Assembly: GCF_900090285.1 (NCBI RefSeq)
Contig: NZ_LT607754.1
Coordinates: forward strand, 5,730,001-5,794,000
Direction: 5' to 3'
DNA from: Micromonospora inositola
GTDB taxonomy: Bacteria; Actinomycetota; Actinomycetes; Mycobacteriales; Micromonosporaceae
Length of the DNA: 64,000 nucleotides
In this document: positions 39,753 through 42,787 of the stretch, piece by piece
Numbering within the stretch: position 1 is the first letter of the stretch
How the letters are laid out: each line of letters opens with the position of its first letter
Position numbers and translations under genes: made by a program
The notes under the pieces: model-generated
Databases searched by the model: none
What the model was told of the DNA's origin: nothing
What the model saw: the letters and a program-made list of their open reading frames with translations, nothing else

Positions 39753-40047
39753 CCATGATCGCGGTCAGCCCGTTGGCGGCGGCAACATCGCGGACGACCC
39801 TGCGTTCGTCGCGGTTCTCGACGCTGCACGTCGGTATCCGGTCATCGGCTTGAAGCGGCTGACTGGCACACCAGCATCGTGGACGGTCGGCCTCACGGTC
39901 CGCGTCCGGCATGCTCAAGGCCCGTATAACCCGTCAATTGGGGTCACCGTGTAGCGCATCAAGCGGAGCACGACATCGCCGGCAGCCGCCTGTCGAGTCT
40001 CAGGACCTCGGTGACAGAACGGTCTCAAGACGTGAGTGGCACTTCCA

Positions 40048-40076
40048 GCTAGTGCGGTGTCCACTAACGTTCACCG
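40048..40076 (+). repeat. Left terminal inverted repeat of the tnpB element
   Basis: 29-nt copy matching the reverse complement of 41534-41562 with four or five mismatches. It contains the TAG stop codon of tnpB (40064-40066). Confidence 0.75.
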
Positions 40077-40250
40077 GGTTTCCGGTGGGTGTCATGGATC
40101 CTCGCCGTGTGGGCGAGCGACTCCCCACCGGGTGGTGGGGCGGGCCTCCGCGGGCCAACTGATCCTCGCGCCGCCCGGGGTGGGCGGCGGGGGTCACGTC
40201 GGGACCGGCCGGCACCGGGGAGATGCCGGCCGGCTCGACGGTGCGTGACC
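40064..40250 (-). ncRNA. Possible omegaRNA (reRNA) region at the 3' end of tnpB
   Basis: In TnpB systems the guide scaffold is transcribed from the 3' part of tnpB to the element end, with the guide lying just outside. Here the coding end after RuvC-III (downstream of about base 40310) is low-complexity in protein terms and runs to the left terminal repeat at 40048-40076. Exact RNA ends cannot be read from sequence; the assignment is inference. Confidence 0.35.
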
Positions 40251-41518
40251 ACCTCCGGCAGCACAACCGCTGCCGGGGTGGTGGATCCGCCGCCCGGAAC
40301 ACGGGTAGCGATGCTGGCCGCCGCAACGAGGTCGCGGTGCCCGGAGAACGCGCAGTGCGGGCAGGACAGGGTCCGTCCACGGGGTTTCGGCACCCGCCGG
40401 TGGCAGGCGGGACAGGTGGAGGAGGTGCCACGTTCGTCGACCAGCCGGACGGTGATGCCGGCGAGGGTGGCCTTGTCGGTGAGGACCTGGATGAGCCGGC
40501 CGATCTGCCACTGCCGCAACCGCAGGTTGTGCCGCCGCCCCGCCGGCAGGTCCAACACCCCGCGGGGGTCGCCGACGTGTAACACACCGACCCGCTGCCG
40601 CACCGCCCACGAGACGACCGTGCGGGCGGCCTCATGCTGGGCCTGACGCACCCGCCGCCGGTGCCTACCCTGCACCAGGCGGGCCCGACGGCGGTACTGC
40701 CGCCACCGCCGGGATCCCTTCTGACCCGGCTTCGGTGCCCGGCGTGAGACGGCGCGGTGGCGGGATTTGGTGTCGGCCAGGTGCATGCGGTGTTCGGCGC
40801 GGATCGCCCGCCCCGACACCAACAGCCCCTCCCCGCCGGGGCCGGCCACGGCGTAGGGGTGGATGATCCCCAGGTCCACCCCCGCCACCCTGCCGGGGTC
40901 CGGTTCCTCGCCGGGCGGGTAGACCGCCACCGGCACCTCAGCGGTCACGTCGAGGAACAGCCGACCACCCTCACACCGCAGGGTGACCGACCGGACCTGC
41001 TCGACCGGGTACGACACCTCCCGCGCCAAACGGATCCACAACGGCGACGTGCCTCTGGCGGTGGGGATCCGGACCCGGTGCCCGTCGAGGGTGAACGTGC
41101 CGTGATACCAGCGCACCGGCAGCAGCGCACGCCGGCGACGCGGGAACCGGGCCGACAGGTCACCGGCGCTGCGGCGTTTCGCCGCCGCGAACCACGCATC
41201 CGAGAACCGGCGCAACACCGACCGGGCACCCACGGAGTCCAGGTCGGCGAACGTGCCCGGCCCCGACGCCGCCAACTCCCCACACAACTGCTGATAGCCG
41301 ACCAGCGGCGCGTCGTGGCGTCGGCGCCGCCACGCGTTCACCTCCAACACGCACGCCCACACATCACCGGCGGAGCGCAGCAGCCCGAAACACCGCCGCC
41401 GCTGGCCTGGCGTGAGCCGCAACCCGACGCGCGCGGTGCGATGCACGACCCGCGGCGCGGCGGGATCCCGACGACGAGGCACGAACCGAAGCCAACACCA
41501 CCCCTCCGACACTTTCAC
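40064..41518 (-). CDS. tnpB: TnpB, RNA-guided nuclease of transposon origin
   Basis: 484 residues. The N-terminus (VGLRLTPGQRRRCFGLLRSAGDVWACVLEVN) is the standard TnpB opening. RuvC-I is VAGVDLGI (Asp215). A C4 zinc finger is formed by Cys369/372 and Cys386/389, and RuvC-III is FSGHRDLVAAASI (Asp396). At the canonical RuvC-II position, where a Glu is expected, the sequence is LHVGDPRG (Asp317); a Glu is found later in LVDERGTSS (Glu362). The last 80 residues are Arg/Pro/Gly-rich and unlike protein, and may be the reRNA/omegaRNA region read through. GTG start at 41518. It would cut DNA adjacent to a TAM using RNA made from its own 3' end. Confidence 0.9.
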   Translation of the reverse strand: MKVSEGWCWLRFVPRRRDPAAPRVVHRTARVGLRLTPGQRRRCFGLLRSAGDVWACVLEVNAWRRRRHDAPLVGYQQLCGELAASGPGTFADLDSVGARSVLRRFSDAWFAAAKRRSAGDLSARFPRRRRALLPVRWYHGTFTLDGHRVRIPTARGTSPLWIRLAREVSYPVEQVRSVTLRCEGGRLFLDVTAEVPVAVYPPGEEPDPGRVAGVDLGIIHPYAVAGPGGEGLLVSGRAIRAEHRMHLADTKSRHRAVSRRAPKPGQKGSRRWRQYRRRARLVQGRHRRRVRQAQHEAARTVVSWAVRQRVGVLHVGDPRGVLDLPAGRRHNLRLRQWQIGRLIQVLTDKATLAGITVRLVDERGTSSTCPACHRRVPKPRGRTLSCPHCAFSGHRDLVAAASIATRVPGGGSTTPAAVVLPEVVTHRRAGRHLPGAGRSRRDPRRPPRAARGSVGPRRPAPPPGGESLAHTARIHDTHRKPGER

Positions 41519-41533
41519 CCAACCGAACCATCC

Positions 41534-41562
41534 CGGCCAACGTTTGTGGACACGGCACTAGC
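41534..41562 (-). repeat. Right terminal inverted repeat of the tnpB element
   Basis: 29-nt partner of 40048-40076. The stop codon of ltrA (TAG, 41558-41560) lies within it, so the last codons of ltrA were probably supplied or cut by the insertion. Confidence 0.75.
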
Positions 41563-42787
41563 CGGGTGGTGACGCCGGCTCGGGTGGGCGGCCGCGGGCG
41601 CGTGTCGCGTCAGCAACGGCGATCCCGGCGAGGACTGCGATAGCGGCGATGGCGGTCACCAGCGGCGGCACGAGGAGCATCGGCGGTGCCAGGGCGGCCA
41701 GCGCGAGGACGCCGATCCACCGAGGCCGGGACACACGGGCGAAGGTGGCGTATTCGAAGCCGGCTCGACCGACCAGGAACAGCGCGGGTCCGCCGAGGAT
41801 GACGGCGACCCAGGCTGGTGGGGTGTGTTCGAGTGGATGGGCGATGACGAGTTTGTCGCCGACGGCGGTGGTGACGATGCCGGCCAGCATGATCAGGTGA
41901 GCGGCCGCCGCCGTTAGGGCAACGCGGTCCGGATTGCGGGCCGCTTCGATGGCGGCGGGCAACAGTTCCCCGGCCCGACGGATGTAGATCCGCCAGAACA
42001 GGGCCGTGCCGACGAACGACACCACGAACGCCGCCGTCCGATCGGCAGCGAAGCCGGTGCCAGCGAGGGTCATCGTGGTGACCAGGATCAGCTCGCCGAG
42101 CGCAATGATGAAAACTTGCTGGTACCGCTCGGCCAGGTGCTCAGCCACAATCGGAAACCGCGATATGGGCGAGCGACGCAGCCCCGGGGTCGAGTAGCGG
42201 AGGGCGGCGCCCGTGTAGTCCACCGCAACCGCCAGCGTCCACAGGACCGCGCGCCGCGTATCGGGCACGAGTGCACCCGCGATCCACGGCACCGCCGAGA
42301 CACCGAACCAGGACAGCGCCCGGATGCTTCTGCCCTGCAACTCGTGGCCACGCAGGGCGAGGACCAGGAAGAGCTGGCGGCCGACATGGATAGCGACGTA
42401 CATGCCAGCGAAGACCAGACCTCGCCCGCCGAACGCGTCGGGCAGCGCGACCACCATCACCAGGCTGCCGAGCATGGTCGCGGTGACCAGCAGCTGAATT
42501 TCCGGCTGTTGCGGGTCGTACAGGTCGGTGACCCACGCCGTGATGCTCCACACCCACCACATGGCCAACAGCAGCACCAGCGTCTCGAAGGCGCCGCTCC
42601 ACCTGAGATCCTCGAGCAGCCCTTGGGAGAGCTGGGCGAGCGCGACGACGAACACCAGGTCGAAGAACAGCTCCAGGAAGTTCGCCCGCCTCGACTCCTC
42701 GGGCATCCGCAGGAACCGGGCCCCGCTCGTCGTCATCATCCCGCCCGTTCTGCCGGCTTTGTCCGACGCTTGAGGCATTCCTACCAT
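41558..42787 (-). CDS. LtrA-family membrane protein
   Basis: 409 residues with eleven or so membrane segments. Signatures FLELFFDLVFVVALAQL at the start, MWWVWSITAWVTDLYDP, AEHLAERYQQVFIIALGE and ALFWRIYIRRAGELLP are those of low-temperature-requirement A proteins, whose biochemical role remains unclear. The tail after AVLAGIAVADATRARG is short and the stop lies in the repeat of the tnpB element, so the natural end may have been a little different. ATG at 42787 is given; ATGs at 42739 and 42736 follow GGGCGGG and are possible. Confidence 0.88.
   Translation of the reverse strand: MVGMPQASDKAGRTGGMMTTSGARFLRMPEESRRANFLELFFDLVFVVALAQLSQGLLEDLRWSGAFETLVLLLAMWWVWSITAWVTDLYDPQQPEIQLLVTATMLGSLVMVVALPDAFGGRGLVFAGMYVAIHVGRQLFLVLALRGHELQGRSIRALSWFGVSAVPWIAGALVPDTRRAVLWTLAVAVDYTGAALRYSTPGLRRSPISRFPIVAEHLAERYQQVFIIALGELILVTTMTLAGTGFAADRTAAFVVSFVGTALFWRIYIRRAGELLPAAIEAARNPDRVALTAAAAHLIMLAGIVTTAVGDKLVIAHPLEHTPPAWVAVILGGPALFLVGRAGFEYATFARVSRPRWIGVLALAALAPPMLLVPPLVTAIAAIAVLAGIAVADATRARGRPPEPASPPG

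Follow-up and report, generated by a model that had tools for sequence, protein, structure and literature searches.

What kind of transposon carries the tnpB gene of this locus, and does the protein, a relative of Cas12, contribute anything to the persistence of its carrier? Prokaryotic TnpB has been placed in the IS200/IS605 and IS607 families, and capture by DDE elements is described for the eukaryotic Fanzors (PMC10711439 and PMC3627910, in the parts of these papers available to us). Bacterial elements that carry tnpB alone are said to be without inverted ends and target duplications (PMC3627910, available part). The locus analysed here lies in a stretch of 64 kb, termed 'the window', that covers positions 5,730,001-5,794,000 of a 6.7-Mb Micromonospora chromosome. 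A preliminary description had noted a tnpB element with 29-bp inverted ends and CTAG at both borders, and had suggested that tnpB is the cargo of a 'MITE-like' element moved by a DDE transposase acting in trans.

The element, its ends and its borders

The inverted ends and the CTAG borders are confirmed, and the exact span of the element is given in Table 1. The left end agrees with the reverse complement of the right end at 24 of 29 bases; its next best match on either strand of the 64-kb window reaches 19 of 29, and its best match in five mononucleotide shuffles (one strand of each) reaches 17-18. A repeat search of the window did not list the inverted pair, which contains no exact run of nine bases. 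In copies with different flanks, homology ends at the borders of the element. CTAG is scarce in the window, with 26 occurrences in 64 kb.

The preliminary description had raised a possible duplication of CTAG. Empty sites do show a single CTAG (see below), but the duplicated bases are most likely only the TA within it, in keeping with the IS630 rule; the C and G around TA are best read as preferred flanks of the target together with the element's own terminal G and C. Sites reading CTAG cannot by themselves separate a 2-bp from a 4-bp duplication, and in 7 of the 86 distinct 3' flanks that start with TA the following G is absent and TA is kept. Duplication of TA is described for IS630-family elements (PMC2170065, available part).

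Table 1. Features of the tnpB element and its insertion site (positions within the window)
Feature	Position	Strand	Basis
Whole tnpB element, 1,507 bp (GTGC...GCAC)	40052..41558	- (tnpB orientation)	borders common to copies with different flanks
TA, left copy of target duplication, within CTAG 40049-40052	40050..40051	.	sequence and empty sites
TA, right copy of target duplication, within CTAG 41558-41561	41559..41560	.	sequence and empty sites
Terminal inverted repeat, tnpB 3' side	40052..40080	.	24/29 bases as at the other end
Terminal inverted repeat, tnpB 5' side	41530..41558	.	similar to the termini of IS630 transposase elements
Predicted scaffold of the guide RNA (omega RNA/reRNA), sharing bases with the 3' part of the tnpB frame; 5' limit set arbitrarily	40052..40281	-	44-copy alignment (conserved stems, loop lengths)
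Terminal hairpin, 3' arm (bases 9-13 of left inverted repeat)	40060..40064	-	covariation, partner counts
Terminal hairpin, 5' arm (one U-G pair in window copy)	40094..40098	-	covariation
Proposed 20-nt guide (inferred length and start), assuming a scaffold that runs to TAG	40029..40048	-	flank counts and PMC10711439 (available part)
tnpB open frame from likely GTG start (residue 13 of 484-aa ORF)	40064..41482	-	NCBIfam/Pfam; upstream stops in other copies
tnpB conserved core	about 40283-41482	-	profile matches
GCTA, proposed TAM side of insertion site	41559..41562	-	5' flank G in 49/51
ltrA-family gene, TAG stop codon as insertion target	41558..42787	-	Pfam LtrA, 297.5 bits

Copies, empty sites and distribution

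Eight full-length copies, 89-100% identical to the window copy, are found in its own genome, and at least 26 of 160 Micromonospora genomes (own included) hold a full-length copy, defined as one that spans query positions 1 or 2 to at least 1504, with two candidates scored per genome. A wider tally of 122 of the 160 genomes includes short end-only matches and chance matches. Both ends could be called at 44 of 51 loci with a tnpB match, giving lengths of 1,486-1,519 bp; of these 44 copies, 39 have CTA at the end of the 5' border and 41 have TA at the start of the 3' border.

Empty sites were sought with 14 joined flanks as queries against 25 genomes. As the preliminary description had anticipated, two other Micromonospora genomes (L151 and L156) contain the site of the window copy in its empty form with a single CTAG (...CCCGGCTAGC...), both reading ...CACCCGGCTAGC..., and the empty sites of a second copy, L064, read ...CACCGGCTAGGG... 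(L129 and L152). At a third, L003, the junction in ten relatives is CTCAG or TCAG rather than CTAG, so that its target differed by a base or was one base longer; the relative of L004 can be aligned only roughly. The suspicion that the repeats might belong to the ltrA neighbourhood independently of tnpB is contradicted, as they accompany the tnpB element at unrelated sites.

Beyond the genus, a scan of one genome per species, with a 68%-identical relative from genome G200 as the query, returned 37 loci, among them loci from Actinoallomurus, Paractinoplanes, Plantactinospora, Rugosimonospora, Blastococcus and a Frankiaceae MAG. Twelve of the 14 loci outside Micromonospora were examined: six (L277, L279, L288, L290, L297 and L306) are bordered by TA at both ends, which agree at 17-20 of 22 bases; L298, whose contig starts at the element, agrees at 13 of 22; L287, L292, L295 and L299 gave no convincing end pair (9-12 of 22); and the G200 locus itself (L276) begins at a contig start, its 3' end alone being read. 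Four more distant copies, from two other genomes of the phylum and with cores 56-60% identical, have ends at CTA that agree at 14-17 of 22 bases and a tip reading GTGC or a near variant (GCGC, ATGC). Close relatives are rare in broad samples: at E <= 1e-40 they occur in 4 of 150 genomes sampled from the order, among them the window's own genome and two of its genus, and at E <= 1e-25 in 3 of 346 sampled from the phylum, again counting the window's own.

Such ends, bordered by CTA, were also seen on short derivatives, 148 to 303 bp long (L385 743-890, L386 709-1011, L087 1681-1844 and L088 1471-1634), with no room for tnpB; two 164-bp derivatives with matching ends occupy different sites in one genome (G062). 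In three copies from three genomes (L059, L070 and L078) one border reads CTCACTG instead of CTA, possibly a shared neighbouring repeat.

IS630 elements as the carrier

An element with the same ends and a transposase of its own, which the preliminary description had proposed to look for, is represented in Micromonospora by IS630 transposase elements, most of them 1,234-1,244 bp long, whose ends are nearly (not fully) identical to those of the tnpB element and whose borders are the same CTA and TAG. The IS630 end GTGCTCTGACCACAAACGTTGGCCGGG equals the 5' end of the tnpB element L059 over 27 bases, the IS630 element L092 (genome G131) and L059 (genome G094) being identical over their first 27 bases. 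Two DDE_3 matches occur in the window's own genome. One belongs to an intact transposase element (L054 868-2115), with CTAGTGCTCTGACCAGAAACGT common to both of its ends; beside it lies a second end with a transposase-like fragment. The transposases of L092, L054 and a third element, IS630-B, score 162.6, 174.2 and 271.1 bits against the NCBIfam IS630 profile (cut-off 100), and all three also pass Pfam DDE_3. Relatives of the L092 transposase were found in 48 of 160 genomes of the genus at E <= 1e-80, and a DDE_3 match in six of the eight tnpB-bearing genomes searched for it. The other two, G051 and G080, gave no DDE_3 match, so the transposase partner is not always present today.

Ends in common with an IS630 transposase element, and insertion at TA with duplication of TA, are thus both found here; TA ends 51 of 60 distinct 5' flanks and starts 86 of 92 distinct 3' flanks. 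A preference of the IS630 family for CTAG was reportedly the subject of a 1991 paper by Tenzen and Ohtsubo, to judge from its title. These comparisons support the reading that tnpB is the cargo of a non-autonomous element of the IS630 type (the bacterial branch of Tc1/mariner), and not of an IS200/IS605 or IS607 element. The suggestion of a DDE transposase acting in trans is likewise supported and can be narrowed to the IS630 family, by which the element would be moved. An IS5-type origin, IS5-type elements having CTAG-like targets, was dropped after IS630 elements with similar ends turned up.

The spacing between DDE_3 genes and tnpB elements is constant in genome G050, which raised the possibility of a composite IS630-tnpB unit. 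This was rejected for most copies, because the IS630-B copies are 96.6-100% identical whereas the tnpB copies L372-L377 are 88.7-98.9% identical (for L377, in the opposite orientation, the IS630-B identity of 96.8% was taken from BLAST). Joint movement is possible for the pair L372/L373, in which tnpB is 98.9% and IS630-B 99.9% identical. IS630-B, 1,141 bp long, is situated at the 5'-border CTAG of six full tnpB elements (L372-L377) and of two further ends (L378 and L379) of that genome, in one orientation in seven of the eight, and the border of the tnpB element seems to be a favoured target of it. In the window's own genome, at about 707.2-708.2 kb (L107 1721-2733), two IS630-type ends in the same orientation, separated by 1 kb, enclose a frame judged by eye to resemble an inositol monophosphatase.

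The TnpB protein

Profile matches and a structural search agree on the family and the fold. The protein scores 137 bits against NCBIfam guided_TnpB (cut-off 100), and Pfam Cas12f1-like_TNB and OrfB_IS605 are above their cut-offs. In Foldseek the top ranks are TnpB and Cas12f complexes, the best being 8iaz (ISFba1 TnpB; E 9e-17) and 8h1j (TnpB-omegaRNA; E 2e-16), with TM-scores of only 0.4-0.5 from a structure model of limited quality (pLDDT 73, pTM 0.50). The GTG at 41482 is the probable start, because 15 other copies have an in-frame stop upstream of that point.

Residues D203, E350 and D384 are unchanged in all 22 aligned sequences. The canonical position of the RuvC-II glutamate is occupied by G (VGDPRG), which had first suggested a dead TnpB; a displaced glutamate, six residues before a zinc-finger cysteine (VDERGTSSTC) and invariant in 22 of 22, offers an explanation. 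A D-E-D RuvC triad is therefore present, with its glutamate at the position called Ealt, the term for this displaced arrangement in PMC10711439 (available part). The RuvC-I motif is GVD(L/V/F)G in 21 of 22 rows, and GVDLG in the window. In the Actinoallomurus relative (L277) it is GVDPG, together with the displaced glutamate; the pairing of a DPG of the GVDPG type with a displaced glutamate is given as the 'fingerprint' of Fanzors (PMC10711439, available part). Across the 22 rows Ealt is thus present and DPG absent except in L277.

The core frame is intact in 39 of 44 copies, with a median dN/dS of 0.17 (199 of 200 sampled pairs), and TnpB is, on these values, under purifying selection. It would be a compact nuclease, with a core of about 400 amino acids and its active-site glutamate displaced, and the TAM predicted for it is GCTA(G).

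A predicted guide RNA at the transposon end

An alignment (A1) of the last 233 nucleotides of 44 copies, three flank bases included, resolves into near-invariant blocks split by loops, and the changes in loop length are not multiples of three. RNAalifold predicts 54 pairs from A1, 2 of which covary within the genus; a search of Rfam gave no family match for the RNA region. A second alignment (A2) comprised 18 chosen sequences, made up of ten diverse copies and eight further Micromonospora copies. The last predicted stem joins bases 9-13 of the inverted repeat to an internal arm about 30 nt further inside, and its pairing is kept through the combinations UCCAC/GUGGA, UCAAC/GUUGA, UCAG/CUGA and ACCAC/GUGGU. 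In A2, 96.7% of its cells are paired, as against 81.2% when shuffled and 22-41% when slid; both sides are changed in four of the five pairs, and the innermost pair fails in 3 of the 18 sequences. Of 500 shuffles of A2, none reached the covariation score and 35 reached the number of pair types, in a test that was not blind, the stem having been chosen from the A2 sequences themselves.

An inverted partner of the end core is found at 75 of 86 tnpB 3' ends (shuffled expectation 8.2) and at 9 of 51 tnpB 5' ends (expectation 10.0). The corresponding counts for IS630 elements are 7 of 43 at 5' ends (expectation 2.3), which is likewise in excess, and 3 of 34 at 3' ends (expectation 8.6). Taken by end type, these counts argue against a general DNA-binding repeat, and the transposon end seems to be built into the scaffold of the predicted guide RNA. 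A comparable arrangement has been predicted for Fanzor1 and Fanzor2* reRNAs, with the terminal inverted repeat and the target duplication taking part in the scaffold (PMC10711439, available part).

Flank asymmetry and an apparent TAM

Flanks were given the orientation of tnpB and reduced to distinct sequences; in an IS630 control, the transposase set the orientation. In all 51 distinct 5' flanks that end in TA (9 of the 60 are not bordered by TA), C precedes TA, and in 49 of the 51 G precedes CTA, giving GCTA. Of the 86 distinct 3' flanks that start with TA, 79 continue with G, and the mirror C comes next in 31. The two sides differ (49/51 versus 31/86; p 2e-13), whereas those of the IS630 control do not (26/43 versus 18/34; p 0.64). 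When the sites are paired, the G is found on the 5' side only, on both sides, on the 3' side only and on neither at 27, 15, 1 and 1 tnpB sites, at 7, 8, 8 and 6 IS630 sites, and at 83, 59, 86 and 110 of 338 background NCTAGN sites in the DNA analysed.

The 5' border of the single 'neither' site, L237, was later hit by another IS630, and one exception, L061, is the wrong way round. All eight outer flanks beneath the nested IS630-B insertions (at six full tnpB copies and two further ends) are G, a count to which IS630-B's own preference could add. Outside Micromonospora, ten elements with both borders have G (six) or C (four) as the 5' base, three of the four C-bearing copies coming from one genome (G478), and the 3' mirror G is seen in one. 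A stop-codon context as the cause of the flanking G was rejected, a coding stop appearing likely at 6 of 51 5' borders and 20 of 86 3' borders. The asymmetry has the appearance of a TAM (GCTA or GCTAG) that TnpB superimposes on the transposase's CTAG; an end or orientation bias of the transposase is a possible cause instead.

Proposed mechanism and alternative explanations

The reading that we favour, with a probability of roughly 0.78, is that of a non-autonomous IS630 element which carries tnpB and a guide RNA, is moved in trans and is kept by TnpB cutting at the GCTA(G) empty site. An IS630 transposase encoded elsewhere would recognise the ends and would cut and paste the element into CTAG, duplicating TA. 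TnpB would be a nuclease guided by an RNA that continues through the 3' inverted repeat into the flank, with flank sequence thereby serving as the guide; the inverted repeat would form part of the RNA's last hairpin, as the covariation suggests, and the fixed TA(G) probably lies within the scaffold. TnpB probably needs GCTA or GCTAG beside its target, the presumed target being the empty site, and a cut there after excision would lead to recombination with the sister copy and restore the element. Copies beside GCTA on the tnpB 5' side would then be kept, and copies without the motif lost over time. Retention of this kind, in which a TnpB cut is followed by recombination that restores the element, is known for IS200/IS605 TnpB. 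The carrier type, the duplication within CTAG, the constrained nuclease, the end within a conserved hairpin and the one-sided flank motif are read from the compared sequences, and from them we infer transposition, RNA read-through and guided cleavage.

Could the transposase alone account for the flanking G? It is conceivable, if rather unlikely, that an IS630 transposase moves the element and that slight differences between its ends set its orientation relative to the G, TnpB being perhaps inactive or irrelevant to the choice of site. The ends do differ within the first 20 bases at 43 of 44 paired sites, mostly by 1-5 bases, and the orientation bias of IS630-B beside tnpB borders (7 of 8) indicates that target asymmetry can influence a transposase of this family. 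Against this, IS630 elements with nearly the same ends are unbiased (7 versus 8), and the G tracks the orientation of tnpB even though the ACC/TCC variants of L084 and L105 stand at the opposite ends from those of L008. Where the outer 20 bases of the two ends differ at two positions or fewer (19 paired sites), the G is still on the 5' side only in 11, on both sides in 7 and on the 3' side only in 1.

It is very improbable that the copies are a dead dispersed repeat, in which tnpB is a functionless passenger and the RNA-like conservation reflects transposase binding sites: truncated copies are indeed many, but 39 of 44 cores are open with the low dN/dS given above, the active-site residues are invariant in 22 of 22, and an internal partner of the end is frequent nowhere but on the tnpB 3' side. 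Scarcely credible is an IS200/IS605 or IS607 element without tnpA ('IS1341-like') whose inverted ends are coincidental; the annotation of the protein as IS605 OrfB/TnpB would fit it, whereas the CTA (39/44) and TA (41/44) borders, the ends in common with IS630 transposase elements and the empty sites speak against it. The earlier picture of a MITE-like cargo stands as to the ends, which are of the IS630 type, and falls short in that tnpB is probably more than a passive passenger, since its RNA seems to include the end and its sites carry an apparent TAM.

Relation to known systems

The closest parallels lie among the Fanzors. As in Fanzor1 and Fanzor2*, a TnpB-family protein is the sole gene between Mariner-type ends with a TA duplication (PUl-4; Bao and Jurka 2013, PMC3627910, available part), the ends and the duplication are predicted to lie within the RNA scaffold, and the RuvC glutamate is displaced (PMC10711439, available part). 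The present element differs in its bacterial host, its bacterial IS630 carrier and its RuvC-I motif (GVDLG in the window, not DPG), and its capture by IS630 was presumably independent of that of the Fanzors.

With the IS630 family (Tc1/mariner superfamily; IS630, ISY100) it shares the end type, the TA duplication and the CTAG preference, and it departs from that family in having no transposase inside and in carrying tnpB and its RNA instead. MITEs are short, non-autonomous elements with the ends of DDE transposons, and the element resembles them in these respects, but at 1.5 kb it holds a conserved, constrained gene. An RNA that crosses the right end of the transposon into the flank, predicted here, is a trait of the TnpB of IS200/IS605 (ISDra2) and IS607 (ISXfa1) as these are described in the available sources, and a fixed flanking base within the scaffold is reported for IS607 (PMC10711439, available part). 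Elements of these two families have other transposases, in IS607 a serine transposase, and are without inverted ends or duplications; the element described here has both, and tnpB with its RNA takes up nearly the whole length of the copies (1,486-1,519 bp).

A literature search, with subscription papers and most preprints outside its scope and some sources available only in part, found no report of a bacterial TnpB on an IS630, mariner, MITE or DDE element. If the proposal is true, a bacterial TnpB on IS630, a relative of Tc1/mariner, would represent the Fanzor-type step of DDE capture within bacteria. We lean towards the broader view that a whole clade of bacterial TnpB, its guide RNA remodelled around the transposon end, rides IS630 elements in place of HUH or serine ones, and that the insertions display a footprint of selection by the nuclease, because the transposase's target, CTAG, is shorter and more symmetric than the one-sided TAM. 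In IS200/IS605 a single motif serves both as transposase target and as TAM. The target of the present element is distinct from its apparent TAM, and the role of TnpB in keeping the element can hence be tested from natural insertion sites.

The insertion site in ltrA

The window copy is inserted in the stop codon of the ltrA-family gene, and the element's terminal G restores the TAG. Two ltrA-like loci of the same genome, that of the window (41558-41562) and L002, each have a tnpB element at the corresponding stop codon, TAG, either through independent insertion or through duplication of one segment.
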